Source: Syntrophomonas sp. DTU019
GTDB taxonomy: Bacteria > Bacillota > Syntrophomonadia > Syntrophomonadales > Syntrophomonadaceae
Length of the DNA: 64,000 nt
Direction of reading: 5' to 3'
Assembly (NCBI GenBank): GCA_913757435.1
Contig: CAJYDM010000002.1
Span: forward strand, 1 to 64,000
In this document: piece by piece, positions 28,046 through 63,033 of the stretch
Layout of the letters: each line of letters begins with the position of its first letter
Position numbering within the stretch: position 1 is the first letter of the stretch
Notes under the pieces: model-generated
What the model was told of the DNA's origin: nothing
The model's input: the letters and a program-made list of their open reading frames with translations, nothing else
The model's database searches: none
Translations under genes and position numbers: made by a program

Positions 28046-28242
28046 TGTTACTGCCACCCCATAATGTCCGGTGATAGACGGTGTAATTTGGCCAAAAGTT
28101 GACGGATGTGCTGACCGTTTGTAAACGGTAAAATAAAAGGGAGAAAAATTGGCCACTAAAAACGGAGAATATTTACCTTAATGTTCCAAACCAGCTAAAA
28201 TTGTAGGGTAAAAGACTACAATTATGCGAGGAGAGGAACCAG

Positions 28243-30520: not shown

Positions 30521-30605
30521 TCCTATGGAAAATTATTGGCCAAAATTTCTCCAAAATACTTGACCGCTTACACCGTTTGGGCAGCCCCTTAAGGGGCAGG
30601 GAGAA

Positions 30606-32754: not shown

Positions 32755-32803
32755 TGCTCAAGCCTCCTTTTTAAGCTTTAACATTGAGTTTACCTTTACA
32801 CTT

Positions 32804-33310
32804 TTATGGACAAAACGCTGAACGGGTATGTGACCATAAATTTAAATTGGCTATGGGTTTGACAACTCTGGCCAGCCAACCGGGTGCATCTCCTACATGC
32901 TGCCAGATCCTGTGGAGCTTGGACGGGGGAAGGCTGGATAAACCTCCCACAGATTCCTTTAGATCATACCTTAGGATTATTGATGTCAGGCAACTCTGGA
33001 AGTAGTCAGCTCTTTCAAAAAACCAGTTCTGCCACCGCTTAAGGGTAGACTCATCTGCAATTACACTCATCTGTCTTTCCTCGGTAATTGTAGTTTCTAT
33101 ACTCTCCCGCACATGGTGTTTGTAAGGAACTAATATATCCGGAAGTTCATGATGAATCCTTTTGCAGTCAACACATCTCAGTCTACGAATACTCAAAACT
33201 ATCTTGTTTCCATGGGTATTGATACAGCTTCTTTTGCGGCTGCCTATCACCTTTAATCCCCCGCTGCAGCAGGGACAAGGAATCTGCTCCAAGCTCCTAA
33301 CAGAAAACAC
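32804..33310 (-). CDS. DUF6431-type zinc-ribbon protein of the transposon
   Basis: This 168-residue protein has an N-terminal zinc ribbon (CPCCSGG followed by CVDC), a basic helical middle and a KRWQNWFFERADYF segment. Its constant position upstream of the transposase-ATPase pair suggests a DNA-binding accessory. The start is GTG at 33310 or TTG shortly downstream (TTAGGAGC before it). Function unknown. Confidence 0.7.
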   Translation of the reverse strand: MFSVRSLEQIPCPCCSGGLKVIGSRKRSCINTHGNKIVLSIRRLRCVDCKRIHHELPDILVPYKHHVRESIETTITEERQMSVIADESTLKRWQNWFFERADYFQSCLTSIILRYDLKESVGGLSSLPPSKLHRIWQHVGDAPGWLARVVKPIANLNLWSHTRSAFCP

Positions 33311-33508
33311 CCTTGGAAGGGTTCTCTATCAGCTCATATTTTGATACAATAACCATACTTGGTGTGGACGTCTCTGGTGCTTCTGTTGGTCGCATTAGCA
33401 CATTTATACAGAGGCGTCTTTCCTTTCTGTATAATATGGTCATTATATCCAGCTATTTTTGGTCAGGCAACTCCGTCAGCTTTTGGACGGGTTAGGTTGG
33501 CTTTAACA

Positions 33509-33563
33509 GCAAGGCCTTGCTCTTAATAATTTGTTTGGTTGAATTCGTGATAATATCCTTAAT
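33509..33563 (-). pseudogene. 5' part of the split TetR gene
   Basis: After the second GCAAGG, the minus-strand frame reads KDIITNSTKQIIKSKA and joins exactly to LPLFARKGYEG of the 3' part at 28039. No ATG, GTG or TTG precedes in frame; AGGAAAAGAAAC lies before an ATT codon at 33563. The native start is therefore unclear. Confidence 0.7.
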
Positions 33564-39670: not shown

Positions 39671-40618
39671 TTACATCCCATACTTAGCCCTAAACTCACC
39701 AATCCAGTCATTATGCCGACCGCTGACGGTTATGGCTGCAACCACCTTCTGAATGGTGACAGCACCAATGCGGTCTCGTTTGCTCTCCGGAATAAAAGAT
39801 TGCAGGAAAGGCCAAAGCCCGAGAGTGGTCCCGCCGTGTTTCGATTGGCGCATAAAAGCCGGGTTTCTCTCATCGTATAACAGTACAAAGATCCCTTTAT
39901 TATGCAAAGCAAATATGGCTTCTCTGAAAAATTGATAGTAGTTGGCCAACGGGCATATTGGGCTTGCGGTCATATTGCCCTCTAAGAAACCATGTTCCTG
40001 CAGACGATTCCAATACTGTCTGCCAATATGATGCAAATAGCAGTTATTAAGGCCAATCTGGCATGGGTTGCGCCCTTCGCAGTCGCCATTTGCAAACAAC
40101 GTACAGCCGCCAAACTCCTTCTCAGATAATTTGGACTCCACAAACAAAACCACATCTGAACCGGTTATAACCAGATCGATTGAGGTGGGCTGCCCGGAAT
40201 CTTCATTGAAAACAGTTCTGTCGGTCAACTCGAACCGGGCGCTTATTTCACCTTGCGGCCAATTCATTCCGGCATCATTGAAAGCGGGTTGCAATGACTC
40301 CAGATCGTCGCGGACAATCAGCGGTCCTAACAGGTTAAACAACATAGCCTGGCTGCTTAAGCCATGGTGAATATACTTATGTAGGGTATAGGCTTCTTTG
40401 CCCTTGCTGACTTCTCGCTGGGCCTTGATATAGGCAACCACATCAGAACATATGATGTTCTTGGGCCAGTTATCGAACTCATCCAAAATGAATGGATATC
40501 TGGAATGCACGTTGTAGCCCTTGGACTTAAACCATGCCGCCGCAACCTTTCGCAGATCCCGTTCATAATGACTGTAGCGCGGATATGGCCATGTCCTGGC
40601 CAGGCGTCTGCTGCTCAT
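39671..40618 (-). CDS. PD-(D/E)XK nuclease-like protein (PGN_0703-type)
   Basis: This 315-residue protein has the motif SIDLVITGSDVVLFVESKLSEKEFGGC, with Asp and an ExK pair on adjacent strands as in PD-(D/E)XK nucleases, and a Cys-containing NxxC segment after it. An N-terminal region reads YERDLRKVAAAWFKSKGYNV. GGAGGAGGAG lies upstream of the ATG. It resembles solitary putative restriction endonucleases and sits in the island of DNA-modifying genes. Activity is inferred. Confidence 0.6.
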   Translation of the reverse strand: MSSRRLARTWPYPRYSHYERDLRKVAAAWFKSKGYNVHSRYPFILDEFDNWPKNIICSDVVAYIKAQREVSKGKEAYTLHKYIHHGLSSQAMLFNLLGPLIVRDDLESLQPAFNDAGMNWPQGEISARFELTDRTVFNEDSGQPTSIDLVITGSDVVLFVESKLSEKEFGGCTLFANGDCEGRNPCQIGLNNCYLHHIGRQYWNRLQEHGFLEGNMTASPICPLANYYQFFREAIFALHNKGIFVLLYDERNPAFMRQSKHGGTTLGLWPFLQSFIPESKRDRIGAVTIQKVVAAITVSGRHNDWIGEFRAKYGM

Positions 40619-41092: not shown

Positions 41093-41980
41093 TTAATCAC
41101 CATGTCCACAGCCAGTTGATTCAGCCACACTGTATCCAATCATAAATAAAGCCGATTGTAAGGCCATTAGCTGCATCTTCTGGTCTAAGTTATTGAAATT
41201 TGATTGTGTATTTTCAAGAATCGCCTTTAAGAGCCAGTTGGCCTTAATATTGCTTTCGGTATGCCTTTTAGGGTTGTTTACTAATTCCGGGAATATGTAA
41301 GGTCCTTTGCTCGGATTCCTCCGGTTGACGCTGCCCGGTTTGTAAGTCTGCTCTTTTCCCCGGCCCCAGGCAAAAAGTAGTTCAGGCGGAACTCGATTTA
41401 GTTTTATGGCTTCGCAAAACTTACGAACGAGGACACCTAACGCGGCTCCAACTCTGCCATCGTATATTATGAAATCTTCTATATACAGCGAATATATCTT
41501 GGTGAAGCCGGAATTCATTATAATGCTGTCGCGGTAATACTCTCTTAATAATAAATCACTGCTGAAAATCTGCTCAACTTCCCTAAGGTAATTGCATATT
41601 TGGCTGCCAAGCTGCTGAATCCTTTTGTCGTTTTTATTCCGTACCCCACCCCACTGCAGTATCAGGAGACAGTGTTTTGAGCAGGCCGCATGGTCCATGT
41701 TCTCGATGCTGTTTCTTAGCCCCAAAGATAATCCTCCCAAGTAACGAGCACTTTCTTCAAGGCTGCTGCCGCTCAACTGATGGCCGGTAAATGGGTCAAC
41801 ACATCTAAACGGCCAGTGGTAGGTTTCATATGCTGAATAAATGGAATCGCATGCCCAGTATTTGGCGGGCTTCTTCATCTGGTAGGAATGGCAGAAACCG
41901 TTTGGGCTGTCCAGCTTGGGTTCAATCCATTTTACAAAGTCTTTAACCGAAGCACTGTTGATATAATCTAATTTTCTCAT
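41093..41980 (-). CDS. OGG-fold (8-oxoguanine DNA glycosylase)-like protein
   Basis: This 295-residue protein contains SGFTKIYSLYIEDFIIYDGRVGAALGVLVRKFCEA. This resembles the conserved core of the OGG-like family (S-x-x-TK-xY...IYDxRVAAAL), in which a Lys and an Asp are the glycosylase pair. It overlaps the ADP-ribosylglycohydrolase stop by 4 bp (ATGA), so the two are translationally coupled. A base-excision or base-modification role linked to ADP-ribose is an attractive inference; the family match is from memory of motifs. Confidence 0.5.
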   Translation of the reverse strand: MRKLDYINSASVKDFVKWIEPKLDSPNGFCHSYQMKKPAKYWACDSIYSAYETYHWPFRCVDPFTGHQLSGSSLEESARYLGGLSLGLRNSIENMDHAACSKHCLLILQWGGVRNKNDKRIQQLGSQICNYLREVEQIFSSDLLLREYYRDSIIMNSGFTKIYSLYIEDFIIYDGRVGAALGVLVRKFCEAIKLNRVPPELLFAWGRGKEQTYKPGSVNRRNPSKGPYIFPELVNNPKRHTESNIKANWLLKAILENTQSNFNNLDQKMQLMALQSALFMIGYSVAESTGCGHGD

Positions 41981-43155
41981 CGCCTGCCCTCATTTCGGAT
42001 AGCACAAGGTTGTTTACACGGTTTAACACAATTTATTACCGCCGCCGTACAATCAGTTGCGTGCCAGAATAATACCTTCGCCTGCTCCAGCAGCCTACAC
42101 ATCTGACCATCATCGTTTTCCCCGGTTCTTCCGCTCAGATCCGTCAGCCATCTATCTGGTAAGGCCTCCTTACCGTATAGTGCACCCATAGCAGTCCCAA
42201 CAATGGCAGCAATAGTATCGTTATCGCGTGTATCGTTCACTGCTCGTATAATGGCCTGTTCCGGATCTTGACCGTATTTCATCAGAATATATAGTGTCGA
42301 CGGAATGGTCTCAAGCAAATAAGTCCCTGAATACCAATAATCGCACGCTTTCACCACTGACCAATTATTGGTCCAGGCCTGGTCTATCAGTTTTTCGCAG
42401 TAGTCAGCTAGACCACCGCAATAATCCGTGATATGAGGGGTGCGCGGTCTGTAATCGTGCCTGATCTCCAAATCCCTGATCACCTTTGTAAATTCTTCCT
42501 TATACCACCAAGGGTCTGGCGGAGATGTCATTCCTAAGAGCTGCCAAACCAAATACACAAAAGCCACGGATGCTGCGATGGCAGCTGAGTCATTATGAGT
42601 AATGGCAGCAAGTAATGCTGTATCCACCCACAAATCTGCAGATGGTGAGTTCAAATAAGGGAACACAACCGGGGCAATTCTCATGATTGCACCATTTCCC
42701 GCTGATTTTACAGCTGCATCATACCAGGGCTTACCCCCTTTATAGTTTCGCAAGAAACCTCTTACGCTTTGACCGATTCCGAAAATATTCTGGCAAGAAA
42801 ACCTCCTGGCTATATGCTCCGGATTCATGTGGCGATCCGCTATCATTTGTTCCAATGTCCAGAAGGCCAATTGGCTGTCATCCGATGGCAAACCCAAAGC
42901 ACTACGATTGGCATGTCTATTGGGAAGGTAATTCGTTATTTCTCCATGTTTTGCGTAGCGCTCCCTAGGGGTCAAGCTCTCACTGGTATTCCCCAAAGCA
43001 TCGCCTATGGCCAAACCCAGCATCATGCCCTCAACATACGAAAATTGGAACTGTGCAGGCAGTGGGTCGGGAGGTACATCAAATATAATACCGTCACGGA
43101 CTTCAATCTGATTGTCCTGTAGCAACCTCTTGAGAATAGTCCTATTGGCGCTCAT
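41977..43155 (-). CDS. ADP-ribosylglycohydrolase (DraG/ARH-like)
   Basis: This 392-residue protein has the family's metal-site motifs: GLAIGDALGNTSESLTP at the N-terminus, LPSDDSQLAFWTL (DD-[ST] motif), GNGAIMRIAPV, AAITHNDSAAIAAS and RDNDTIAAIVGTAMGALYG near the end. These enzymes remove ADP-ribose from protein or nucleic acid using Mg2+. I start at the ATG at 43155 (AAAGGAG 8 nt upstream) rather than the GTG at 43164. It is downstream of the dynamin operon by 75 bp and coupled to the OGG-like gene. Confidence 0.88.
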   Translation of the reverse strand: MSANRTILKRLLQDNQIEVRDGIIFDVPPDPLPAQFQFSYVEGMMLGLAIGDALGNTSESLTPRERYAKHGEITNYLPNRHANRSALGLPSDDSQLAFWTLEQMIADRHMNPEHIARRFSCQNIFGIGQSVRGFLRNYKGGKPWYDAAVKSAGNGAIMRIAPVVFPYLNSPSADLWVDTALLAAITHNDSAAIAASVAFVYLVWQLLGMTSPPDPWWYKEEFTKVIRDLEIRHDYRPRTPHITDYCGGLADYCEKLIDQAWTNNWSVVKACDYWYSGTYLLETIPSTLYILMKYGQDPEQAIIRAVNDTRDNDTIAAIVGTAMGALYGKEALPDRWLTDLSGRTGENDDGQMCRLLEQAKVLFWHATDCTAAVINCVKPCKQPCAIRNEGRR

Positions 43156-43230
43156 TGGGTCCACTCCTTTGTAGATGAGTGTAAGAGGTGGAAAATGCTT
43201 TTGGTTAATACTTGTTTCGGGTTAACTCCT

Positions 43231-45795
43231 TTAGGCTCTCTGGTCATTACGGTAATGACCAATGGTTTGCAGAATATCATCTGCCAACGCAACAGAAAAC
43301 TTATCACATAAATATAACACCATACTGATATAAGTAGATGTTGCCTCGGTAAATCTTTCTGCCAGGATATAGTGGTATGTTTTTGCTATATAGTTTTCCC
43401 ACAAGAACAAATAGATTTTTTCGCTGTCGGGTTCAGTGTCAATTGCTTCTACTATCAATGGTGCAACGCGGTAATACTCTTTAATCAGCAAATTGACGTT
43501 TTTGTCCCGTTCTTTCATAAAGTCGCGGTATTTTTTCATCAGTATCAATTCCGGACAATCGTCCTCTTTCTTTAAAGCCAAACAAGTGGCAGTGGTGATA
43601 AAGCACAACCCGCCTCGTGAGCTGCTGCTGCTGGAGGAGCCGCTGTAACTATATGAAGAGCTTGATGAATAGCTCCGCTCTGAGCTGTAGGAGGTGGTCC
43701 GGCTCGAGTTGCTCTCAATCCAACTAACAACCTTGTCATACTGGGCTTTAGCCTTTGGGTGTCCCTTCTGATGGGCTTTATTAAAATACTCCTTGGCCTT
43801 CTGCAGATCTTGAGCGGTCCCTTTGCCGTATTGATACATATTGCCGCAGCGATAGAGTGCATAGGGAGAATTGCACTTTTGAAGATATTCCATGGAGCGA
43901 CGATAGTCTTCCCGCTTAAAAAACAAATGCCCCAGTTTTTCGGTGGCATTTAAATTATCTGGTTCTTGGGAGATGATGTATTGATATAGTTCAATAACAT
44001 TATCGTATTTTTCTGCCATCTCTTCTTCAGATAAGTACTTATAATAGGTAGACATTACTTTGTCATAAAATTCCTCCGCCAATACCTTAATGGCGGGTAA
44101 ATAGCCATAGGAGGCAGCCATTTTCAGGTTTGTTATCGCCTTGGCGTATTGTTTATCCTTGATTTGCATCCCTAAATCATAGTTTGCAACCGGAACCATA
44201 TTTTGGGCTAAACTTTCTAAACTTATATCCTGACTCACTTTACTTAGCTCGTAAAGTCTTTCCCCGGATGGCATATGCTCCATTTCTAAAGCTTGAAAAT
44301 AGAGGCGGATGGCTTGCTGCAGGTTGCTGTGCTCTAACCCTTGCGCTTTATAGTAACATTCCCGGGCGGTCGTTGGTGTGCGGATTTTAGAGGCGATGCG
44401 AGTATAATCATTATCATTAAGGCCCAGTGTTTCTCCCATGATTATTTTGGCCCTTTGCACCAACAGCAGGCTCTCATCTTCGTTGTGCAGTTTTGCTAAA
44501 GCTGCCTCAGAAATCCTTTCGTTTTTGGCATGGTAAATCAGCATATCCAAGATGTAGTAATAGGGATAGTTGATTGCTCTTAATCTTTCTGCATATTCTT
44601 TGGCCAGGCGATAATCTTCGGCTTGAATCAGCCTGAAGGCCAGCTTACTCCACACCTCGCTCATATTGTCGTGGTATACCCTGACCTTTGGCGCATGGTC
44701 TGCGGAAGGGTTCATGGCCTTTTCAAAAAAAGCCTCCAAATTAAGAGCGTTTTTAACTAAGGCATCCATTTTGGCTTTCAGCTCCAGATAGCTATTCTGG
44801 GCCTTTTCGATGGTGTGCTTGAGGCTGTTGCGAATGTTTTTGGCTTTCTCATTAGTATCATCATGATCGATTTTAACTAGATCAGCGTTGATGTTGCCTA
44901 AACGCTTACTCAATTTCTGGGTGTAAGCTAGGTAAAACTGATCGATTTCCAGCAATATTAAGCGAATCTCATCAACAAAGGCATAGTTTATACAGGGCCT
45001 ACATATTGAATTTAGGACTGCGCCCAGTTCCTCAGCGGTAATAAGGGAGATATTAGCGCGCAATCCCGGATGAGACGCCAAAAACTCCGGCTTATAACTT
45101 TCCTCAAGAATTACCCAGACCGGTTTAAAACTTCTGTTCTGTAGGTAATGCAAATGTTTCAGGCTTCTTATATTATCCTTAGCAGCGTAAACAATGAAGC
45201 AGTCGACTTTTTCTTCCAGAGCGGTATTAAAATCCTTGAATTTGAGGGTGTAATCAGGAAAATGGGCAATCACACAATCATCTAAGCTGATCTCAGCCGG
45301 CACCGAAAAAGCATTGACCAGGTTGCGGATATCGATTCTATATTTATATAATTGCCTTGTCACCTCGCGAAATTCGGTATGGTTTAACTGCACCTCTTTT
45401 TCCAGCACATTCAGTGCTTCCACCTCATCAGCGGATGAAGGTACGCAAATACTTGGCACATTGGTGTTTAAGGCCATTTTTTTCAAAGCGGCGTCAGATA
45501 CCAGTTTTGCCAGCACCTCATTAAAAGTCGCCGGGTCAGATCCCATAACGCCTATGACCGTTTTCCCGATCAATTCCGAATATAAGACCAGGATTTCGAT
45601 CTTATCGAGGATCCTTTTGATTTCGGACAAGATCCGCGCTTTATTTGGAACTAAGCTCTGGGCTAGTTGGTCAGAAAAGTCTTTGTTGATCTCTTTATAT
45701 AACCCATCAAACAAGCGCTCCAGTTCTGAGCTTTTATCGGCTTCATCGTCTAATAACTTGGCCAGTAGGGTGATTTCTTGTTCACTTCGATCCAT
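43231..45795 (-). CDS. Dynamin-like pseudo-GTPase fused to TPR/Sel1 repeats and a Cys-containing C-terminal domain
   Basis: Started at 45795 (AGGAG 6 nt upstream, 8 bp after the preceding stop), the protein has 854 residues. Its N-terminal region parallels the preceding GTPase: KTVIGVMGSDPATFNEVLAKLV stands where that protein has KTIIGIGGKFSAGKSKFINALL. A FPDY stretch stands for DTPGY, and LEESYKPE for the NKAD region. All nucleotide-binding motifs are therefore lost while the fold pattern is kept. Helical TPR/Sel1 repeats follow (YRCGNMYQYGKGTAQDLQKA), then a Ser-rich linker and a GGLCFITTATCLAL domain. It probably acts as adaptor for the three GTPases. Confidence 0.8.
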   Translation of the reverse strand: MDRSEQEITLLAKLLDDEADKSSELERLFDGLYKEINKDFSDQLAQSLVPNKARILSEIKRILDKIEILVLYSELIGKTVIGVMGSDPATFNEVLAKLVSDAALKKMALNTNVPSICVPSSADEVEALNVLEKEVQLNHTEFREVTRQLYKYRIDIRNLVNAFSVPAEISLDDCVIAHFPDYTLKFKDFNTALEEKVDCFIVYAAKDNIRSLKHLHYLQNRSFKPVWVILEESYKPEFLASHPGLRANISLITAEELGAVLNSICRPCINYAFVDEIRLILLEIDQFYLAYTQKLSKRLGNINADLVKIDHDDTNEKAKNIRNSLKHTIEKAQNSYLELKAKMDALVKNALNLEAFFEKAMNPSADHAPKVRVYHDNMSEVWSKLAFRLIQAEDYRLAKEYAERLRAINYPYYYILDMLIYHAKNERISEAALAKLHNEDESLLLVQRAKIIMGETLGLNDNDYTRIASKIRTPTTARECYYKAQGLEHSNLQQAIRLYFQALEMEHMPSGERLYELSKVSQDISLESLAQNMVPVANYDLGMQIKDKQYAKAITNLKMAASYGYLPAIKVLAEEFYDKVMSTYYKYLSEEEMAEKYDNVIELYQYIISQEPDNLNATEKLGHLFFKREDYRRSMEYLQKCNSPYALYRCGNMYQYGKGTAQDLQKAKEYFNKAHQKGHPKAKAQYDKVVSWIESNSSRTTSYSSERSYSSSSSYSYSGSSSSSSSRGGLCFITTATCLALKKEDDCPELILMKKYRDFMKERDKNVNLLIKEYYRVAPLIVEAIDTEPDSEKIYLFLWENYIAKTYHYILAERFTEATSTYISMVLYLCDKFSVALADDILQTIGHYRNDQRA

Positions 45796-45803
45796 AGTCT
45801 CTC

Positions 45804-47048
45804 CTATTGGGTGAGTGTTTGGAAAGAATTTCGAATATTCCAGCTCACCTGATTTAATCTCTTTCGACAATCGTAAATGATCTTAAGCTGATCAAAACAA
45901 TCCGTGTATAATTCCGCTAAAGATTTAACCGACAAAATATCCTCAGAGCGGAAGATAACATTACCAAGGAAATTACGCTCATTGATAGCATTTGCGTTCA
46001 TATTGTCAAAGACAGTATTGAGCGAAGAGATGATATTATTTAATTGCTGACCGATATCTTCCTTCCGATCCGAGTAAGCTGATGCCGTTTCTAAGAAATC
46101 GCTAATATAGGCTTTTCCGAGGTACTCTTTAGCCCATAAGGAGGAATATGCCGTCACCGCATAAACCTTCAGATCGGTCTTTTTAAGCACTTTCCGGCTC
46201 TCTTCAAGGATCTTTTTGATGTCTGCTTCGATCTTTTTGTCAGCTTTATTAAAAACAAACAGGATGGGGGTGGGGATGCCTAAGGATTTAATAAAATCTA
46301 TGTCCCGGTTTTGTATGATCCCGTTTTCAATGTCCACTAACCAGATCAAAAAATCGCAGGACTTCAATTGATCAAAGGCCTTTTGTTCGTCAGAGACGGA
46401 TTTTTTGGTGTTGGCGTCATATTTGCTGTAACCTGGGGTATCTAAGATGGCGATTCGGTCATGGACAATGGCCTCACTCTTGATCACCAGGTTCCTGACA
46501 AAATGGGAAAACCCCAATTTATACTTATCATAGAACTCGTGAGTCAGCGCCTGCATGGCCTGCAGATCCAATTCCACTTCCTGGTTGTTAGAGGTAAAAG
46601 CACACATTGAACTCCTGTCAGAATTTAAGATATAGGTAGGGATAGAGGTGGTCGGTTTTTGATCCTCCGGTAAAATATCATTCTCTAAGAGCGCATTGAT
46701 GAATTTTGACTTGCCCGCGCTGAATTTGCCCCCAATGCCGATAATGGTTTTGTCGCTTAGCAAACGGATCTTTTTGTATTCCTCGATTTTATCGCTGATC
46801 TTATTGAGCTGAATACTGAGACTGACTTCATTGGACAAATTAAGATTGCGAACCGCATTGAGCAGGCTGTAATCCAATAAGTAGTCTAGTTCACGAACTT
46901 GCTTGCCCTTTTCATAATCTTTTTCAGCGCTTAGAAGTTTGGCCACTAATTCCAACCCTTTTGCCGGGTCATTGAGATATATATTACCTGCGTCTTGCGC
47001 CAAATCCGATTCTAATGCTTCGATATCATCATCATCCCACAGTCCCAT
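45804..47048 (-). CDS. Dynamin-family GTPase, short form (DLP3)
   Basis: This 414-residue protein has G1 GGKFSAGKS (107-114), G2 Thr in KPTTSIPT, G3 ILDTPGY and G4 FVFNKADK, followed by only a short helical region. It lacks a long stalk and paddle, so it may rely on partners. Its ATG follows the stop of the preceding gene directly (TAAATG), which implies translational coupling. Its G domain is the closest relative in the operon of the downstream pseudo-GTPase. Confidence 0.9.
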   Translation of the reverse strand: MGLWDDDDIEALESDLAQDAGNIYLNDPAKGLELVAKLLSAEKDYEKGKQVRELDYLLDYSLLNAVRNLNLSNEVSLSIQLNKISDKIEEYKKIRLLSDKTIIGIGGKFSAGKSKFINALLENDILPEDQKPTTSIPTYILNSDRSSMCAFTSNNQEVELDLQAMQALTHEFYDKYKLGFSHFVRNLVIKSEAIVHDRIAILDTPGYSKYDANTKKSVSDEQKAFDQLKSCDFLIWLVDIENGIIQNRDIDFIKSLGIPTPILFVFNKADKKIEADIKKILEESRKVLKKTDLKVYAVTAYSSLWAKEYLGKAYISDFLETASAYSDRKEDIGQQLNNIISSLNTVFDNMNANAINERNFLGNVIFRSEDILSVKSLAELYTDCFDQLKIIYDCRKRLNQVSWNIRNSFQTLTQ

Positions 47049-49274
47049 TTACTGCCTTCCTCCATATGCTTTTAAAAGTTGTTTATGGTTCTTGATGTCC
47101 TCAATAAACCTTTGATAATTGGCAATGCTGGTTTCTTTGTCCTGCAAATGATCCTGAAGAGCCCGAATATTGGCAGAGAGATGGTCATTGACGCTATCCA
47201 CAAAGGTCGCGGCTTGTTCCTTCAAAATACTCTCGATCTCTTCCCCGGTCCTTTGCAGTTTAGCGCAGATATCTTTAGTCACCTTTTGCAGGACTTCTTC
47301 TTGTTTGAGCATCAATTCATGGATCTGATCGCCTTGAACATAGGCTGAAGAAAAGGTTCGCAAAAGCATTTCATTATAGATCTCTGCGTCAATGGCGATC
47401 TTGGGCAAAACCAATTTTTGAAGCACCAATTCTAAGGGTGCTAAAATATCATTTTCATCAAAGCTGGTATTACTAAGATCGAAGGCTTGTAATACGCTGT
47501 CCTTGACCTTTTTCTGAACACCGCTGATATTGATGGCCTTTCCCAGGTCGCTGTTGATGATCTGCTGTGCTTTGTTGATGTATTCACGAATATTGGCCAT
47601 AACATCATGGACGCTGGCGGTATGGACAGTCACCGTTTCGGTATAATGTTTGGTGCTTTTAAAGATCCACCAGCCTTCCTGATAGGAGCCATGATTGGTT
47701 TTATGTTCTTTCCCGGTTTGTACATCGGTATAGTTTTTGACAACGCACCTGACATCGGCAGAAATATCATTGATATACTTCTGCGATTCGACGGCGGTGA
47801 TCTCAAAGATGGTTTTGATCTGTTGGCGCATTGAATTGAGTTTAGCGTTTAAGATGTTGAGCTTCTCTTCTAACTTTCCTTTGTCATAGCAATGCAGATC
47901 GGTCAGATTACGTGTCGCCTGGATATTGATATCTTCTAAAAGAGTTAGAAAATTGCTGCGCTCCGTCATGATGGTGCGCTTGCTCTTATCCTCCAGGATT
48001 TTCTGCTTGTCCGCTAAGATTGTGCTAAAAGTCTTTGCTTTGACCCGTTCCAGGTTAGAAAATTCAAACAGCAGCTCCGGCGTGGGGTCAAAGTTACTGA
48101 ACCTTTTGCGCAGACTATTCAGGATATGGTTTTCATATTCTGATAAAGGCAGCTTAGCGGATAATTTTCTCGCTGCGCTATATATCAACGCAGAGATATA
48201 AAAAGGCGGTAATGAATCATTTAACTTGGTTAGTACCTGTGAGTTGCCAAAGGAGCTGAGTTCCAAGCATTTTTGTATGTTGGTCTGGGCTTGTGCATTC
48301 AGCGTATTTTGGGTGGCTCTTAAAGCGGAAGCAAAAGCCACGGTTTGACCTCTTTTGGCAGGAAAATCCAATAAGGCCGAGTCAAATTTGCTGCCGATCA
48401 AATAGATATTCTGGATCCCTTCACTGGGCAGAGTGTTGGTGATAAAACTGATATCCTCGCTGTTTAGAAATTGACCGGAGTAACTCAGCAAAAAAACTAA
48501 GTCACATTTCATCAAGAACTTTTTGGTGGTAACACTGCGCGATAAGATGGGGTCATTTAAACCCGGGGTATCGATGATCTCCATATCCTTGAGCAGAGCA
48601 TTATTCAATCCGAGTTCAATGTATTTAACTATAGGTGTGAATCGGCCTGAAGCGCCAACATACTGTTCCAGATCCTTTTCAACGTTAGATATGGAGATGG
48701 CAGCCTCAGTATTGAGCAGCTCACCGATGGGTAAGCTTCGTTCTTGCACCATGGTGGTGAGTTCTTTACACACCTTATACTCTGAGGCGATCCCTTCTTC
48801 GATGGAAAACCGCTCAGCCTCTTCATCGATATATCCATAAAAATCTGCAGACCCTTGGATCAGATGCCGTTCTTGATAAATCCTCAGATATTCTTCGTCA
48901 TATTTACCAGATAGAAATTCTACTTGCTTCCAATCGTAATCCGTATAAAATACCACCCTGGCAGATTGCTGAGGTGAATAAACCAACTTGGTCAAGGCGG
49001 CAGTCATCGGTGTGGCTGCTTGTGGCAGGATATCTTTGCCCTTGAAAACCAGCCCATTTAGGAAGCTTGATTTACCGACTTTTACCTCCCCTACTATGCC
49101 GATTCTCAGGGTCCGATCGGTATTGAGGATAGACTCCAGATTTTCTTTAACCAGGTCATATCGGTTTTGAAACTTTAGAATGTATTCAGGGTTAATCAGC
49201 TGCTCATCAGGGTTGAGCTGGTCAGAGATCTTATCGATCAGTTGGAGAAAGTCGTTACTCGCTTGCGCCTTCAT
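47049..49274 (-). CDS. Dynamin-family GTPase, long form (DLP2)
   Basis: This 741-residue protein has G1 GEVKVGKSS (62-70), G2 in AATPMTAALTKL and G3 IIDTPGLNDP. A divergent G4 (LIGSKFDSA) lacks the usual NKxD Asn-Lys pair. Long helical segments (about 420-740) form the likely stalk, with a central Trp-rich patch (GWWIFKSTKHY) that could touch membrane. AAGGAAA lies upstream of the ATG, 35 bp after DLP1. Paired unequal dynamins commonly work as hetero-oligomers (LeoA-type and Campylobacter DLP1/2 types). Confidence 0.9.
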   Translation of the reverse strand: MKAQASNDFLQLIDKISDQLNPDEQLINPEYILKFQNRYDLVKENLESILNTDRTLRIGIVGEVKVGKSSFLNGLVFKGKDILPQAATPMTAALTKLVYSPQQSARVVFYTDYDWKQVEFLSGKYDEEYLRIYQERHLIQGSADFYGYIDEEAERFSIEEGIASEYKVCKELTTMVQERSLPIGELLNTEAAISISNVEKDLEQYVGASGRFTPIVKYIELGLNNALLKDMEIIDTPGLNDPILSRSVTTKKFLMKCDLVFLLSYSGQFLNSEDISFITNTLPSEGIQNIYLIGSKFDSALLDFPAKRGQTVAFASALRATQNTLNAQAQTNIQKCLELSSFGNSQVLTKLNDSLPPFYISALIYSAARKLSAKLPLSEYENHILNSLRKRFSNFDPTPELLFEFSNLERVKAKTFSTILADKQKILEDKSKRTIMTERSNFLTLLEDINIQATRNLTDLHCYDKGKLEEKLNILNAKLNSMRQQIKTIFEITAVESQKYINDISADVRCVVKNYTDVQTGKEHKTNHGSYQEGWWIFKSTKHYTETVTVHTASVHDVMANIREYINKAQQIINSDLGKAINISGVQKKVKDSVLQAFDLSNTSFDENDILAPLELVLQKLVLPKIAIDAEIYNEMLLRTFSSAYVQGDQIHELMLKQEEVLQKVTKDICAKLQRTGEEIESILKEQAATFVDSVNDHLSANIRALQDHLQDKETSIANYQRFIEDIKNHKQLLKAYGGRQ

Positions 49275-49309
49275 GAAAATTTCCTTTCAGTTAGTAACAG
49301 GTTTAATGC

Positions 49310-50953
49310 TTAGAGTGCGGCGGCCATCGCTTGTAATTTGGCCAGATCTTGATCGATCTCTTCATGATACTGTTGCAGATTAAACAGCTCTGCCGTTTTT
49401 TGGCTCTTAAGTTCATCCAGTGCGGCTATTTCCATATCAATCAGCCCATTAAAATGCATTTCGATCTGAAGGAGCATTTGTTGTTCCACTTCCAGCAAGG
49501 ATTTCTTGATCTCGGGTTCAAGCTTGGCTAGCATGTTGGGGACAACCTCGTTAACGATCTTACTCTGCAGTGATTTTAGTTGATGGGACTGATTCATACC
49601 GGTCAATAACTGCAGTATATCGGGTAAAAAGATAATTAATAACTCCAGCCACGGCGCAACAGCAGTGGTTGTTATGGCTAAAGCCGTCAAGACACTCTTG
49701 TACAGGCCGTTGTAGTTTCCTGCTTTGGAAGAGATATCTCTTAACTTAGTCATTACGATAGAGGCTTTATTAGCAAGCACTCCTGCATCGATCCCATCTA
49801 TTTGTTCGATTTTTAGATTCCCTACGAACTCATTGAAGCTAAGTTCAATATTCTTCTCAGTCGAACTAAGTAACACCGGACGAATAAGGTTGTTCACCGA
49901 CTGACTGAAGGCTTGACCACCAGCTTGGGCGCTTGAGGTCAGCGTTGCCGCGTTAGAAATCAGAACCTGCTGCATATCTGCAAGAATGCTGCTCTTTACA
50001 GTTGTTTGCATCCTATTATGTAATTTGGACTTCTCAACTCTCATGCTGTCTAATAAGGAAACCCTGGCTTTCTCTCTTTTACTAATAGCTATATCAAGTT
50101 CGTGAGCATCAAAATCAAGAGAGTGTTTGATGGTATCTAAAGCACCCGCGGCGTTTTCGATCAAAAAGATCATCCTGTCCTTAAACTTCTTCTCCATGAG
50201 GATCTGCGGGTTAAAGGACTTTATGTTTGAAAGGAGGAAATCCTCAATGTTTTCATCATGTTTTGAAATGGGTGTGATCATAGGGCTATAACCTAAGACC
50301 CTTTTAACATCCTCGGTTACCTTACTTTTGATGTTTTCAACATCCGAAGGAATGCGTTTATCACATTTATTCAGCAGGAAACTGATATTCTCGCTGTATT
50401 TGTTTATTTCACCTAAAAAATTCAGAGCGCTTTGGGAGATAGCCCCCTTTTCGCAGTCTATCACGAAGAGATAGGCCACGCCTTGATCTATATATTGCAT
50501 TAAGGCTTTATTATGCTGCTCTACTCCGGAATCGAATCCGGGCATATCGACAATAATATAGTCCCATAGTTCCTTTAAAACTGAACTATTGATGAAGTAA
50601 CGATACTTTAAATAATCTTCTACAGAGTAATTAGCTATTTCGCTCAGCCCACAGCTGGACTCCATATTATTTTTGCTGGTCAACATGACATGTTCGTCTT
50701 CTCCGTATACCAGTTCAGTTGCGATCGCCGTTTCAGGTCGCAAATCTTCCTCAAGCAAATCTCTATTCAGTAAGGAGTTTATCAACGCTGACTTACCCGC
50801 GCTAAACCCGCCGACAAACAAAACCTTAACCTTAAAACCCACTAATTCCATATTAATCGCAGTCGCTTCATTGGTTAATTTTTCTAATGAATACCTTTTT
50901 AAAATCTCATTGGTTTGCGCTAGATTATTGATATACCCGTCTTTATCAATCAT
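49310..50953 (-). CDS. Dynamin-family GTPase with hydrophobic paddle (DLP1)
   Basis: This 547-residue protein has G1 GGFSAGKS (48-55), G2 Thr in RPETAIATE, G3 DMPGFDS (136-142) and G4 NKCDK (195-199). Coiled-coil/helical stalk segments follow. A strongly hydrophobic stretch (about 430-465, TALAITTTAVAPWLELLIIF) could insert into membrane. It is the first gene of the four-gene operon; GAAAGAGAG lies upstream of the ATG. Bacterial dynamins of this class bind and remodel membranes. Confidence 0.92.
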   Translation of the reverse strand: MIDKDGYINNLAQTNEILKRYSLEKLTNEATAINMELVGFKVKVLFVGGFSAGKSALINSLLNRDLLEEDLRPETAIATELVYGEDEHVMLTSKNNMESSCGLSEIANYSVEDYLKYRYFINSSVLKELWDYIIVDMPGFDSGVEQHNKALMQYIDQGVAYLFVIDCEKGAISQSALNFLGEINKYSENISFLLNKCDKRIPSDVENIKSKVTEDVKRVLGYSPMITPISKHDENIEDFLLSNIKSFNPQILMEKKFKDRMIFLIENAAGALDTIKHSLDFDAHELDIAISKREKARVSLLDSMRVEKSKLHNRMQTTVKSSILADMQQVLISNAATLTSSAQAGGQAFSQSVNNLIRPVLLSSTEKNIELSFNEFVGNLKIEQIDGIDAGVLANKASIVMTKLRDISSKAGNYNGLYKSVLTALAITTTAVAPWLELLIIFLPDILQLLTGMNQSHQLKSLQSKIVNEVVPNMLAKLEPEIKKSLLEVEQQMLLQIEMHFNGLIDMEIAALDELKSQKTAELFNLQQYHEEIDQDLAKLQAMAAAL

Positions 50954-51283: not shown

Positions 51284-51526
51284 TCATCCCTTCGTTAAAA
51301 CCTGAGTGCTCAGGAGTTTACCATCTATTGTTTGTCCAGCAATACCTTTATTTACAAAATTCCCCACTATCGACAATATTCCTTCATTTACCATCAGGTT
51401 CCAATTATATCGGTTTACATAAATCCCCCAGCGCAAACTAATCCCGGCGATCTCCGGTCTGGCGTCAAGCCAGCAGTACCAACATGTACAGTCCCTATCC
51501 TCTATTCCTTTTGTCCCGGCCTTCAA
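51284..51526 (-). other. Unassigned ORF in the gap between the vWA gene and the dynamin operon
   Basis: An 80-codon frame overlaps the vWA 3' end by about 30 bp. Its C-terminal half (WGIYVNRYNWNLMVNEGILS and VNKGIAGQTIDGKLLSTQVL) looks protein-like. There is no clear ribosome site, and I recognise no family. It could be a remnant. The dynamin operon promoter should lie between 50960 and 51120. Confidence 0.3.
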
Positions 51527-52145
51527 AGTCCGCCTCGATATCTGCTTTCCAAGCAGGGTCGAGGTCTAGGTTGGCTCGCCAAGCGCTGACCGCATTACTG
51601 ACCACCTCGTAATTCAGTAAGGTGCCCTGACAGTCGGCATGGTAGTTGGCGGCCCGGGCAGCTCCTATCCCAAATCTGGCCGCGGTAGAGATCGCGTCGA
51701 TGTTGGCACCGAGAAAAATAAATTCCCAGCCGTATTCCCGCTGCTGCTGTTCGACCATTTTCTTGATCTTCCTGTAGCTGTACTCCCGGCTAGCATTTTC
51801 CATGCCGTCAGTGGTTATGACAACCATCACTTTATCAGCCCGTTCTTTGGTGCTGCTCTTCCGCTGCGCGGCGCTGATCATGTTAATGGTCTTGCCGACT
51901 GCATCCAGCAGGGCGGTGCAGCCGCCAATAACATATTCTTTGTCAGTAATGGGGCGGATGTTTTTGATATCGACCCGATTGTGCAGCACTTCGTAACCAT
52001 CGTCGAACAGTATTGTGGTGACCACTGCTTCGCCCGGTTCTTGCTGCTGTTTTTTCAGCAAGGCATTGTAACCGCCAATGGTGTCGCTTTCCAAGCCGGA
52101 CATTGACCCGCTTTTGTCAAGGATAAATACCAGTTCAGTCCTCAT
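51495..52145 (-). CDS. von Willebrand factor A domain protein
   Basis: This 216-residue soluble vWA protein has an intact MIDAS: DKSGSMSG (10-17), Thr in GGCTALLDA and Asp in ITTDGMEN. It resembles TerY-type stand-alone vWA proteins that act as metal-dependent scaffolds, often with phosphatase or stress modules. AAGGAGG lies upstream of the ATG. It follows the HTH gene by 77 bp and precedes the dynamin operon by about 540 bp on the same strand. Confidence 0.88.
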   Translation of the reverse strand: MRTELVFILDKSGSMSGLESDTIGGYNALLKKQQQEPGEAVVTTILFDDGYEVLHNRVDIKNIRPITDKEYVIGGCTALLDAVGKTINMISAAQRKSSTKERADKVMVVITTDGMENASREYSYRKIKKMVEQQQREYGWEFIFLGANIDAISTAARFGIGAARAANYHADCQGTLLNYEVVSNAVSAWRANLDLDPAWKADIEADFEGRDKRNRG

Positions 52146-57060: not shown

Positions 57061-57570
57061 CTAGGCTTTGTGTCTTTCCACCACAGTGGGAAGCGGTTTA
57101 TAGGAGTCAACACCCAGCTGTTTTACTATAGTAGTTCCATCCCCGTTTTTTATAGTGATCCAGGTTTTAACCAAAGCCCCATCCATCCCTTGTACTACCA
57201 CTTTTTCGGTCCCTTTGGGGAGGGATGGGTTATGGCGGTAAACCACCCTGGTGCTGTATTTTTCGAGTACTTCATGGTGCCATTCGACCGCAGGAGCCGG
57301 CTCCTGGCCATAAAACGCCACATACAATCTGTTATCCACGCCTTGCGCCCAAATCAATATGGGGGTGGGGCGGTCATTTTTGAACCTGATATCGGCAACA
57401 CCGGTGGTCACGGTGGCATCCTGCCCATATGGAACATAGGGCACCGGCATACTGTGGGGGTGTCGTTCTATAACCGGCAAATTTGACAATATGGCAACAT
57501 TGTATAGAGTTGAAGCCATTTTACAGACTCCCCCTCCCACCGTGGTTCTCAGTTCGGAGCCGATGTATAC
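57061..57570 (-). pseudogene. VanW-like protein split by transposon copy 2 (3' part)
   Basis: The fragment encodes VYIGSELRTTVGGGVCKMAS, TLYNVAILSNLPVIERHPHS and a G5-like C-terminal domain ending in VVERHKA. The GGGVCxxASTLYNA-type core is the VanW signature. Joining it at the GTATAC duplication to the 5' part (63040-63441) restores the continuous reading GPVYIGSELRTT. VanW proteins are cell-wall-linked proteins of unclear role. Confidence 0.85.
57565..57570. other. Target-site duplication GTATAC, left
   Basis: Identical to 63034-63039; flanks the 5463-bp element copy 2. Confidence 0.9.
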
Positions 57571-57768
57571 TGTTAAAGCCAACCTAACCCGTCCAAAAGC
57601 TGACGGAGTTGCCTGACCAAAAATAGCTGGATATAATGACCATATTATACAGAAAGGAAAGACGCCTCTGTATAAATGTGCTAATGCGACCAACAGAAGC
57701 ACCAGAGACGTCCACACCAAGTATGGTTATTGTATCAAAATATGAGCTGATAGAGAACCCTTCCAAGG

Positions 57769-58275
57769 GTGTTTTCTGTTAGGAGCTTGGAGCAGATTCC
57801 TTGTCCCTGCTGCAGCGGGGGATTAAAGGTGATAGGCAGCCGCAAAAGAAGCTGTATCAATACCCATGGAAACAAGATAGTTTTGAGTATTCGTAGACTG
57901 AGATGTGTTGACTGCAAAAGGATTCATCATGAACTTCCGGATATATTAGTTCCTTACAAACACCATGTGCGGGAGAGTATAGAAACTACAATTACCGAGG
58001 AAAGACAGATGAGTGTAATTGCAGATGAGTCTACCCTTAAGCGGTGGCAGAACTGGTTTTTTGAAAGAGCTGACTACTTCCAGAGTTGCCTGACATCAAT
58101 AATCCTAAGGTATGATCTAAAGGAATCTGTGGGAGGTTTATCCAGCCTTCCCCCGTCCAAGCTCCACAGGATCTGGCAGCATGTAGGAGATGCACCCGGT
58201 TGGCTGGCCAGAGTTGTCAAACCCATAGCCAATTTAAATTTATGGTCACATACCCGTTCAGCGTTTTGTCCATAA
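57769..58275 (+). CDS. DUF6431-type zinc-ribbon protein (copy 2)
   Basis: Same 168-residue translation as the gene at 32804-33310: N-terminal CPCC...CVDC zinc ribbon and basic helical body. It is the first gene after the TGTTAAAGCC end of the element. Confidence 0.7.
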   Translation: MFSVRSLEQIPCPCCSGGLKVIGSRKRSCINTHGNKIVLSIRRLRCVDCKRIHHELPDILVPYKHHVRESIETTITEERQMSVIADESTLKRWQNWFFERADYFQSCLTSIILRYDLKESVGGLSSLPPSKLHRIWQHVGDAPGWLARVVKPIANLNLWSHTRSAFCP

Positions 58276-58324
58276 AAGTGTAAAGGTAAACTCAATGTTA
58301 AAGCTTAAAAAGGAGGCTTGAGCA

Positions 58325-59680
58325 TTGAGAAATGACAAGAAGGCAGAAGAGATAGCGGCCCAGCGGGTGCATATGCTGGCCCCACTCCTTGCTGAAGGCC
58401 TGGATGCCGGACAGGCTAAGGTAATCAAAACCCGGATATGTGAACAGACCGGGATATCCGAGCGCACCTTACGCAGGTATCTAGACCTGTACAGGAAAGA
58501 AGGATTTAACGGACTAAAGCCCAAAGGCAGAGGCAAACGGTGTAGCGAAGAAGCAGTTCCCATTAACGTCCTGGAGCAGGCCATATTGCTGCGCCGCCAA
58601 GTACCCAGTCGCAGCATATCCCAAATCATTCAGATCATGGAGTGGGAGGGCTTAGTTCAGCCAGGACAGATCAAGCGTAGCACCCTGCAGGAAAAGTTAG
58701 CCCAGAGAGGTTACAGTAGTCGGCAAATGCGCATGTATACCGGTACCGGTGTAGCTGCCAGACGTTATCAGCAGAAATACCGTAACCAGCTCTGGCATTC
58801 TGACATAAAATACGGGCCCTACCTGCCCATCGGCAAGGAAGGTAAAAAGAAGCAAGTCTACCTGGTTACATTTGTGGATGACGCTACTCGCTTCATTCTG
58901 CATGGTGAGTTCTACCCGGTATTAGACCAAATAATTGTTGAAGACTGTTTCAAGAAAGCCATCCTAAAATACGGCGTTCCGGAAAAAGTATACTTTGATA
59001 ACGGCGGTCAGTACCGCAACAAATGGATGAATCGAGCCTGTGCCAAGATGGGAATCAGGCTACTGTTTGCAAAACCCTATTCCCCCGAAGCCACTGGCAA
59101 AGTTGAACGTTTTAACCGGGTGGTTGACTCATTTTTAGCAGAGGCCAGATTAGAGGAACCACAAACCTTAGACAGATTAAATCAGTTGTTCACAGTCTGG
59201 CTGGAGGAATGCTACCAGCACAAGCCTCATTCCGGAATAGAGGGTGAGCTTAGTCCGGCAGTGGCATACCAGAGTGACCGTAAGACCTTGAAATACCTTG
59301 ATCCGGAAATACTAGCCAGTGCATTTATGCACTGTGAGGAAAGAAAGGTAGATAAATCAGGCTGTATCAGCTTTGAAAGCAGAAAATACGAAGTAGGTCT
59401 GACTTTTATCGGCTGCAAAGTCGATGTCATCTTCGATCCGGCAGATATTAGTGAACTTACCATCGAATATGAAGGACACCAGCCCTTTAAAGCCCGGCAA
59501 CTGGTGATTGGAGAACGGGCGGGTAAGAGACCGCCCTTACCCGAATTCATGCAGAAAGAACCCACTGATTCATCAAGGCTGCTCCAAGCAGCAGCTATTA
59601 AGCACCAGGAGCGCAAAGACAACTATACCCCCGCCGTTTCCTATCGTTCAGTAAGCAAGGAGGGCGAAGGGCATGTTTGA
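58325..59680 (+). CDS. DDE transposase (copy 2)
   Basis: Same 451-residue translation as 31399-32754 with the three catalytic acidic residues (HSDIKYG, FDNGGQYRN, GKVERFNR) intact. It starts at TTG behind AAGGAGG and overlaps the ATPase gene by 8 bp. Confidence 0.9.
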   Translation: MRNDKKAEEIAAQRVHMLAPLLAEGLDAGQAKVIKTRICEQTGISERTLRRYLDLYRKEGFNGLKPKGRGKRCSEEAVPINVLEQAILLRRQVPSRSISQIIQIMEWEGLVQPGQIKRSTLQEKLAQRGYSSRQMRMYTGTGVAARRYQQKYRNQLWHSDIKYGPYLPIGKEGKKKQVYLVTFVDDATRFILHGEFYPVLDQIIVEDCFKKAILKYGVPEKVYFDNGGQYRNKWMNRACAKMGIRLLFAKPYSPEATGKVERFNRVVDSFLAEARLEEPQTLDRLNQLFTVWLEECYQHKPHSGIEGELSPAVAYQSDRKTLKYLDPEILASAFMHCEERKVDKSGCISFESRKYEVGLTFIGCKVDVIFDPADISELTIEYEGHQPFKARQLVIGERAGKRPPLPEFMQKEPTDSSRLLQAAAIKHQERKDNYTPAVSYRSVSKEGEGHV

Positions 59681-60473
59681 AAGTTTCTATGGTCTCCAAA
59701 AGACACCTTTTTCCAGGGATATACCCACTGATCAGTTGTATCAGTCACACCTGCTGGAAGAAACCCTGGGGAGGCTTGAGTACACCGCCCAGCGGCAGAT
59801 GTTTGCAGTATTAACCGGAGACTGTGGAACCGGTAAGACCACTACCATAAGGTGCTTTAAAGAAATCCTGGACACATCTCGGTATATGGTGATGTACTTG
59901 GCTGATTCCAAGTTAACACCTCGGCATTTCTACAAAGGCCTATTAGAGCAATTGGGCTGTGAGGCTAAATTCTACCGGGGAGACGCTAAACGGCAACTAC
60001 ATAAAGAGATCGAACTGATGCAGGGTATCCACCACCTGCAGCCCGTGGTTATCGTGGATGAAGCCCATCTATTGGACAAAGAGATGTTGGAAGAAGTCAG
60101 GTTCCTGTTGAATTTCAAAATGGACGCCAAAAGCCCGATGGCTTTGATTCTGGTAGGCCAGAATGAACTCTGGGATAGGCTTAAGCTTCAGTCCTATTCG
60201 GCCATCAGGCAACGCATCGACATACAATGCAAGCTGCCTCACCTGGATCGCTCTCAGGTTGGCGAATATGTAAAAAGACACCTGGCTTATGCCGGTGCCG
60301 AACATGATATTTTCTCTGATAACGCTGTTGATGAGATATTCAAGTTTTCAAGTGGAGCAGCGCGAATGGTTAACAAGGTCTGCACTCATTGTCTGCTTTA
60401 TGGAGCTCAGAACAAACGTAACATTATTGATGATCATATGGTTAAGCTAGTTGTTCAGGGAGAATTGAGTTAG
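59673..60473 (+). CDS. ExeA/TniB-like AAA ATPase (copy 2)
   Basis: Same 266-residue translation as 30606-31406, with Walker A GDCGTGKTT and Walker B VIVDEAHLL. Partner of the DDE transposase. Confidence 0.9.
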   Translation: MFESFYGLQKTPFSRDIPTDQLYQSHLLEETLGRLEYTAQRQMFAVLTGDCGTGKTTTIRCFKEILDTSRYMVMYLADSKLTPRHFYKGLLEQLGCEAKFYRGDAKRQLHKEIELMQGIHHLQPVVIVDEAHLLDKEMLEEVRFLLNFKMDAKSPMALILVGQNELWDRLKLQSYSAIRQRIDIQCKLPHLDRSQVGEYVKRHLAYAGAEHDIFSDNAVDEIFKFSSGAARMVNKVCTHCLLYGAQNKRNIIDDHMVKLVVQGELS

Positions 60474-60558
60474 TTCTCCCTGCCCCTTAAGGGGCTGCCC
60501 AAACGGTGTAAGCGGTCAAGTATTTTGGAGAAATTTTGGCCAATAATTTTCCATAGGA

Positions 60559-61308
60559 CTACAGTCTTAGTATAGAATCTCGATGTTTAAGGCGGTAACT
60601 GTCGCCGGTCAGATTGAATATCTCACTATGATGAGCGATTCGATCCAGGATAGCGGTAGTTATAACCGGGTCTCCCATCAATTCGGCCCAGTCTTCAAAA
60701 CCCTTGTTTGAAGTTATTATTAAGGCCGTCTGTTCATAAAGTGATGATATCAATTGAAAAAACAAATTAGCTTCCTGCCTGGTAATGGGGACAAAACCTA
60801 TCTCATCAATTACCACTAAATCTGAAGCCATGATCCGTTTCATCCTCTGGCGGCTCCGGGTTGAGGTAGTTTCCAGCTTAAGATGCTTGATTAAATCATC
60901 CATATTTACGAAGCTTACCTTGTAACCTTTTTTCACAGCCTCAAGCCCGATAGCTACAGCCAAATGAGTTTTCCCCACTCCCGGAGGCCCAAGGAAAATC
61001 AGATTGTAGAACTTCTCAATCCATTGCATATCCAGCAATTGATTAACCTGTTTACGGGTAATAGAACGCTGAAATGCAAAATCGAATTCATCTATGCTTT
61101 TAACAAAGGGAAACCCCGCCATCTTCATCCGGCGCTCTTCAGATCTTTTTTCACGGTAGTTTATCTCTCCCTGCAGCAGCCGGTTAAGAAAATCCAGATA
61201 GGATATGTCGGTACTGCTTGCTGTCTGCAGGGTTTGATCCAGGTTGTCTCTGCACCAGGAAAGGTTAAGGCTTCTTAAATAAGTCCTGGTTTCTTCGGCC
61301 TTGTTCAA
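60559..61308 (-). CDS. istB: IS21-family helper ATPase IstB (copy 2)
   Basis: Same 249-residue translation as 29771-30520; Walker A PPGVGKTHL and Walker B VVIDEIGF intact. Confidence 0.94.
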   Translation of the reverse strand: MNKAEETRTYLRSLNLSWCRDNLDQTLQTASSTDISYLDFLNRLLQGEINYREKRSEERRMKMAGFPFVKSIDEFDFAFQRSITRKQVNQLLDMQWIEKFYNLIFLGPPGVGKTHLAVAIGLEAVKKGYKVSFVNMDDLIKHLKLETTSTRSRQRMKRIMASDLVVIDEIGFVPITRQEANLFFQLISSLYEQTALIITSNKGFEDWAELMGDPVITTAILDRIAHHSEIFNLTGDSYRLKHRDSILRL

Positions 61309-62836: not shown

Positions 62837-63033
62837 CTGGTTCCTCTCCTCGCATAATTGTAGTCTTTTACCCTACAATTTTAGCTGGTTTGGAACATTA
62901 AGGTAAATATTCTCCGTTTTTAGTGGCCAATTTTTCTCCCTTTTATTTTACCGTTTACAAACGGTCAGCACATCCGTCAACTTTTGGCCAAATTACACCG
63001 TCTATCACCGGACATTATGGGGTGGCAGTAACA

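Follow-up and report, generated by a model that had tools for sequence, protein, structure and literature searches.

A four-gene dynamin operon in Syntrophomonas with three GTPases and a predicted non-catalytic, Sel1-repeat-bearing paralogue, and its relatives on plasmids and in other bacteria

Several described systems combine more than one bacterial dynamin. In Campylobacter jejuni, heterotypic activation has been established for the pair Cj-DLP1 and Cj-DLP2, beside which lies a Sel1-repeat (HcpA-like) gene, cj0413 (PMC6104087). Split dynamins are known from LeoC and LeoB, and heterotypic activation has been proposed for LeoABC (PMC4159319). Roles in antibiotic or envelope stress have been proposed for IniA and for Cj-DLP1/2 (PMC6104087), and the DynA protein of Bacillus subtilis protects populations against phage (PMC8844932). 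GTPase folds that no longer work as enzymes have been described in eukaryotes, including CENP-M and domains of p190RhoGAP (PMC10211241). Operons with several dynamins, Sel1 proteins in the vicinity of dynamins and eukaryotic pseudoGTPases are all known already. Here we describe an operon from a 64,000-nucleotide stretch of Syntrophomonas sp. DTU019 (contig CAJYDM010000002.1, positions 1 to 64,000; hereafter, the window), in which three genes for dynamin-type GTPases (D1, D2 and D3) are followed by a fourth (P4), whose product appears to combine a dead dynamin-type G domain with a Sel1-type repeat arm.

This operon may resemble the LeoA/LeoBC system (leoABC of enterotoxigenic Escherichia coli, 'Eleos' in defence catalogues) in having a distantly LeoA-like D1 and a distantly LeoBC-like D2 in tandem, but differs from it in that D2 is unsplit and the extra subunits D3 and P4 are present. 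The scores to the PADLOC models, for which cut-offs were not supplied, are weak: D1 matches LeoA with an E-value of 6e-11 (40 bits), its best stretch being the P-loop region only, and D2 matches LeoBC with an E-value of 2.6e-9 (35 bits) over most of its length. The Campylobacter operon likewise combines heterotypic dynamins with a neighboring Sel1-repeat gene, and the structure of Cj-DLP2 matches the G domain of P4. In contrast, both of its dynamins are live, and the published description of cj0413, as a beta-lactamase of the HcpA-like kind, mentions no dead G domain. The eukaryotic pseudoGTPases share with P4 a G fold that outlived the nucleotide site and serves, in P4 presumably, for protein binding; however, they belong to unrelated small-GTPase lineages, are not of dynamin type, and are not encoded in an operon with a live paralogue.

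By open reading frame calling in the window, the four genes occupy positions 43231-50953 of the minus strand and are transcribed in the order D1-D2-D3-P4 (Table 1), with intergenic gaps of 35, 0 and 8 nt. The D2/D3 junction is a TAAATG preceded by GGAGG (ggaggaaggcagTAAATGgga). At the D3/P4 junction (TAGgagagactATG) the ATG of P4 sits 8 nt past the D3 stop behind a GGAGAG, and because of this placement we favour it (854 aa) over an upstream TTG, from which an alternative frame of 879 aa (43231-45870) would run. Scans for promoter and terminator consensus sequences gave sites no more numerous than in shuffles.

The three upstream products match Pfam Dynamin_N above its cut-off (E-values of 1e-18, 8e-17 and 2e-16 for D1, D2 and D3, respectively) and are the only full-length matches in the whole genome, where three other genes match the P-loop end only. 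Their G1, G3 and G4 motifs are kept in 10/10 loci that carry the four-gene set, G4 being scored with NKxD, SKxD or TKxD variants allowed, and the D3 motifs G1 (GGxFSxGKSxFIN) and G3 (DTPGY) are invariant among the ten. By their G domains D1-D3 are thus members of the dynamin superfamily, for which GTP hydrolysis and membrane remodelling are predicted. An earlier note, made from the DNA sequence alone, had read them in the same way, as three intact dynamin GTPases with these lengths and gaps. A hydrophobic hairpin of the 'ELLIIFLPDI' type is kept in D1 of 10/10 loci (maximum KD19 1.9-2.3), and D3 and P4 have none; therefore, we take D1, probably together with D2, as the putative membrane-active part. 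The AlphaFold2 model of D3 (predicted local distance difference test, pLDDT, 80) consists of N-terminal helices, a G domain and two neck helices, and its residues 46-414 match mitofusin-1 with a Z of 20.1. D3 measures 400-434 aa in P4-bearing loci versus 447-1188 aa elsewhere; a 377-aa D3 close to the edge of its locus is the single apparent exception.

The N-terminus of P4 is named by no library: Pfam, NCBIfam and PADLOC gave no GTPase match for the protein, and Dynamin_N matched 0/10 P4s. Its kinship emerged from profile comparison. With ten sequences in each profile, hhalign aligned the P4 N-terminus to D3 with a probability of 98.3% (E-value 1.4e-14, 227 columns), versus 4.3% for D1, 0.4% for D2, 0.0% for the P4 repeat region and at most 0.3% for 20 column-shuffled profiles. 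These controls rule out composition or repeats alone as the source of the likeness. Against a six-frame translation of its own whole genome, the P4 N-terminal profile matched only D3 besides P4 itself (E-value 2.2e-14), and a hidden Markov model of P4 picks up the live D3 GTPases of other operons over the full G domain (E-value 1e-20 for locus L055).

Structure prediction agrees with the profiles. The AlphaFold2 model of P4 (pLDDT 81) begins with N-terminal helices (residues 4-71), an alpha/beta G domain (79-264) and neck helices (273-360), the same order of elements as in the D3 model. Residues 73-268 match IniA (Z 12.4, root-mean-square deviation 3.0 A over 174 residues), residues 76-267 match Cj-DLP2 (Z 12.1, 3.2 A, 180 residues), and residues 24-360 match mitofusin-1 and BDLP (Z 12.6). 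The P-loop is missing or eroded in 10/10 P4s, in each in its own way, and G3 and G4 are gone in all of them. What is still kept is the switch-I 'IP' proline (P114, 10/10) and the G3 proline (P180, 9/10), which align with D3 SIPTY and DTPGY, respectively. On these profiles and models, the N-terminus of P4 is a predicted dynamin-type G-domain fold with a neck, homologous to D3 specifically, that has lost its GTP motifs, much as the earlier note had supposed when it gave the fourth product the fold of the third without G1, G3 or G4.

The remainder of the P4 model comprises a helical TPR/Sel1 solenoid (373-697) and a C-terminal domain that is likewise helical (731-853), with a Ser-rich disordered linker between them (698-730). 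Residues 381-697 structurally match the Sel1 proteins LceB and LpnE, and Sel1 was detected in 8/10 P4s with E-values down to 3.5e-7, the single scores shown being under the Pfam cut-off. Residues 731-803 match CFI_box_CTERM (NCBIfam NF041770) over the complete model (1-69 of 69) with an E-value of 7e-9 and 35.4 bits, below the cut-off of 40; the CFI box occurs in 8/10 P4s (best E-value 2.5e-19) and is missing in loci L034 and L103. The repeats, the linker and the terminal 'CFITTATC domain' described earlier are all present, but the last of these turns out to be a family already catalogued. The P4s of L034 (11480-15011) and L103 (11121-14029), which lack the box, end in a Tyr/Ser tail of the YYSYYSGGW type, and both loci have a common downstream cassette that includes a radical-SAM protein; a modified tail on these two P4s is conceivable. 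Elsewhere in the window's phylum, CFI-box matches fall mostly in kinase-vWA(-PP2C) operons and short proteins and were rejected as P4 relatives, with the exception of genome G369. Three loci from other genomes of the phylum (L017, L018 and L020) have CFI-box C-terminal frames followed by vWA (TerY-like) genes and, in two, PP2C-like genes, with domains judged by eye, linking the box to systems of the kinase-vWA-phosphatase type.

The D1-D2-D3-P4 order was found in nine loci besides the window, another phylum included, with hosts that range from gut Firmicutes to E. coli, and spacing is tight in all ten. When 84,980 species were scanned with an alignment of D2, 80 loci were obtained, eight of which have the four genes in order; these belong to Scybalomonas, three other Lachnospiraceae, Veillonella sp. 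VA139, two Clostridia metagenome-assembled genomes and one uncultured bacterium. Searching plasmids with P4 by tblastn added plasmids of E. coli and E. albertii (most of them with 91% coverage at 23% identity). In the E. coli plasmid record that was examined, the annotation gives three tightly spaced dynamin genes and, after them, a CFI-box protein; the individual genes are 25-33% identical to those of the window. The E. coli copies are on F plasmids; the operon is present in 5/5426 complete E. coli genomes, each time plasmid-borne, and P4 in 1/398 genomes of the window's phylum. The annotation of E. coli plasmid copies L013, L014 and L015 splits the D2 gene into two or three pieces, and that of L015 splits P4 as well, so some of these copies appear broken; record NZ_CP148279 carries an intact one. 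Pattern-based scans of viral contigs, run with alignments of P4, D2 or D3, turned up no relative of the system and a Sel1-level match only (L022); phage records gave a CFI-box match only.

In a D2 tree of 80 rows, a single branch sets the ten P4-bearing loci apart as one clade (Shimodaira-Hasegawa-like approximate likelihood ratio test 99; 0/500 shuffles). The identity matrices of D1, D2, D3 and P4 correlate across the ten loci (r 0.82-0.96, permutation p <=0.0004). The four-gene form may be read as the outcome of a duplication of D3, after which one of the two copies turned into a non-catalytic, repeat-bearing subunit.

Table 1. Genes of the dynamin operon and flanking inverted arms in the window
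Feature	Coordinates	Strand	Description
D1	49310-50953	-	547-aa LeoA-like dynamin GTPase, intact G1/G3/G4, paddle-like hydrophobic hairpin at ~residues 425-446
D2	47049-49274	-	741-aa LeoBC-like dynamin GTPase, intact G motifs, signature LPxAxTPMTA / DTPGxNDP
D3	45804-47048	-	414-aa short GTPase of the dynamin family; N-terminal helices, then G domain and two neck helices; lacks a trunk and a hydrophobic paddle
P4	43231-45795	-	854-aa predicted pseudo-GTPase with TPR/Sel1 solenoid, Ser-rich linker and CFI-box domain
Left inverted arm	28046-33509	+	5464 bp, nested insertion sequences
Right inverted arm	57570-63033	-	5464 bp, 100% identical to left arm

Three-dynamin operons with related D1, D2 and D3 genes but no pseudo-GTPase are widespread (L023, L037-L110). 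Their D3 is live, and longer than in the four-gene form, and accessory HerA, nuclease or TerB genes may be present. Some join a live D3-type G domain to Sel1 repeats in one chain, as in Helicobacter, Pseudomonas, Macromonas and others. Locus L028 (7429-14549) of G369, from the window's own phylum, encodes a 1120-aa protein that combines a dynamin-type G domain with numerous Sel1 repeats and a CFI box, and two further GTPases follow it; this arrangement differs from the Syntrophomonas operon in that the G domain is intact and all parts are in a single protein. A 1291-aa protein of Moraxella was rejected as a D3-P4 fusion: it is a live dynamin whose C-terminal region is long, and it gives no P4 or Pfam Sel1 match. 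In the Lachnospiraceae-type locus L053 (7433-15844), D2 is followed by a HerA-type ATPase of ~1060 aa and a WHH/colicin-DNase nuclease protein of ~234 aa, with a beta-helix protein inside the locus; the gene layout is resembled in L048, L051, L052, L055, L065, L070, L075 and L091, the domains having been assigned from L053 only. TerB (tellurite resistance) domains occur in genes of gammaproteobacterial three-dynamin operons (L037, 8624-9793; L041, 7247-9866) and, as judged from similarity and member count, in L040 (6694-8007). A WYL regulator is present in the four-gene loci L032 (3582-7219) and L043 (15862-18307), with 80% identity between the two regulators; close by, L032 has an extra GTPase of the Era/IIGP type, and a gene that looks similar is present in L043. 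Plasmids carry many of the copies, and one three-dynamin relative sits within a tra region.

On balance, we lean towards the operon encoding a hetero-oligomeric dynamin machine in which P4, derived from a D3-type GTPase, serves as a non-catalytic scaffold or adaptor, probably with an anti-phage or envelope-protective function; the complex, its pairing, sensing, membrane action and defensive role are what we infer. In such a machine, D1 and D2 would form a membrane-acting pair of the LeoA/LeoBC type, the D1 hairpin being suited to enter the bilayer, and D3 would be a GTPase stripped down to G domain and neck. P4 would have kept the fold, lost G1, G3 and G4, and gained the Sel1/TPR solenoid, the flexible Ser-rich linker and the CFI box. 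Most likely it would pair with D3 through the retained G-domain and neck surface, as a permanently nucleotide-free partner, because the two share a fold, a specific homology and their divergence across loci. The Sel1 and CFI parts may act as sensors of a signal or bring in a partner, since Sel1-type repeats do so in general (PMC7016017), and would thereby link the GTP cycle of D3 to the assembly of D1 and D2 into a membrane oligomer. A defence role is favoured because LeoA and LeoBC are PADLOC defence families, relatives occur with HerA, colicin/WHH nuclease, TerB and WYL genes, copies are carried on plasmids, and DynA acts against phage (PMC8844932); the genomic context is no more than suggestive. 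A bolder version, which we put forward tentatively, is that the operon represents a new class of multi-dynamin immune complex with P4 as its control subunit, where Sel1 and CFI sense infection and license membrane remodelling by three live dynamins.

Several points weigh against the scaffold model. Taken absolutely, the structural Z of 12-13 for P4 is modest, and the model has only moderate confidence in the C-terminal half of the P4 G domain (pLDDT 56-82 for residues 181-260). A pseudo-G domain could also work by itself or have some other ligand. The genes around the four-gene loci are a mixture, many of them housekeeping genes, and LeoABC has been reported to promote vesicle release rather than defence (PMC4159319). 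This last point makes an envelope function a serious rival, in which the operon would act in membrane traffic or repair apart from phage (vesicle release, antibiotic or envelope stress), or in conjugation and plasmid upkeep. The envelope-stress proposals and the adjacent Sel1-type gene in Campylobacter (PMC6104087) are consistent with it, as are the partition and replication genes that adjoin the E. coli copies and the relative within a tra region. We regard it as possible but doubtful, as the sporadic occurrence in E. coli and in the window's phylum, the mobile setting and the nuclease/HerA, TerB and WYL genes of relatives fit defence better than housekeeping.

The shortness of D3, seen only in P4-containing operons, raises another alternative, namely that D3 and P4 are a split dynamin like LeoC and LeoB (PMC4159319), with D3 giving the G domain and P4 a scaffold half that is structural rather than regulatory. 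The D3 model, with its G domain and neck, does resemble an internally deleted mini-mitofusin. However, P4 has a complete pseudo-G domain and neck of its own and is therefore a second paralogue rather than the missing half of D3, and its Sel1 solenoid is unlike a dynamin trunk; we consider this arrangement unlikely. Far less probable still is that P4 is a decaying D3 duplicate, fused to repeats and without a role. P4 does show the lowest conservation in the operon (20-31% identity to the window copy versus 24-44% for D1-D3), and its P-loop region has eroded differently in each copy. Decay is nevertheless hard to reconcile with a gene that is invariably present in one clade and open and full-length in all intact loci, different phyla included, and that co-diverges with D1-D3 while conserving its Sel1 and CFI parts in 8/10 copies each.

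In the window, the operon lies within the 24,060 bp between the two inverted arms of Table 1. The arm module is a nested pair, one element (~74-2527) being inserted in another; pieces of the module are scattered separately at many other sites in the genome, and the complete nest is present only at the two arms. Downstream of the operon are an ADP-ribosylglycohydrolase gene (41977-43164), which overlaps a 295-aa protein without assignment, and a nuclease of the REase-ARP family (39671-40618). The ADP-ribosylglycohydrolase and an upstream vWA gene (51495-52145) were dropped as parts of the system, as neither is conserved in the other loci.

In a literature that covered few subscription journals and no preprints, we found no account of an operon with a dedicated dead dynamin paralogue and a Sel1 arm, in keeping with the impression of the earlier note; related cases are the Sel1 gene beside the Campylobacter pair (PMC6104087) and the live dynamin-Sel1 fusions. 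Bacterial dynamins are thought to act as heterotypic pairs, and here a conserved set has four components, one of them a paralogue that appears to have turned non-enzymatic. Such a division of labour is familiar from eukaryotic pseudoenzymes, and we found no description of it for bacterial dynamins. The survey also indicates that three-dynamin operons are widespread, some of them in combination with genes for HerA and a nuclease. The four-gene set would in addition place the CFI-box domain, as yet uncharacterised, within a defined machine. With four genes and intact E. coli plasmid copies, the operon would offer a directly testable system for the assembly and triggering of hetero-oligomeric dynamins.

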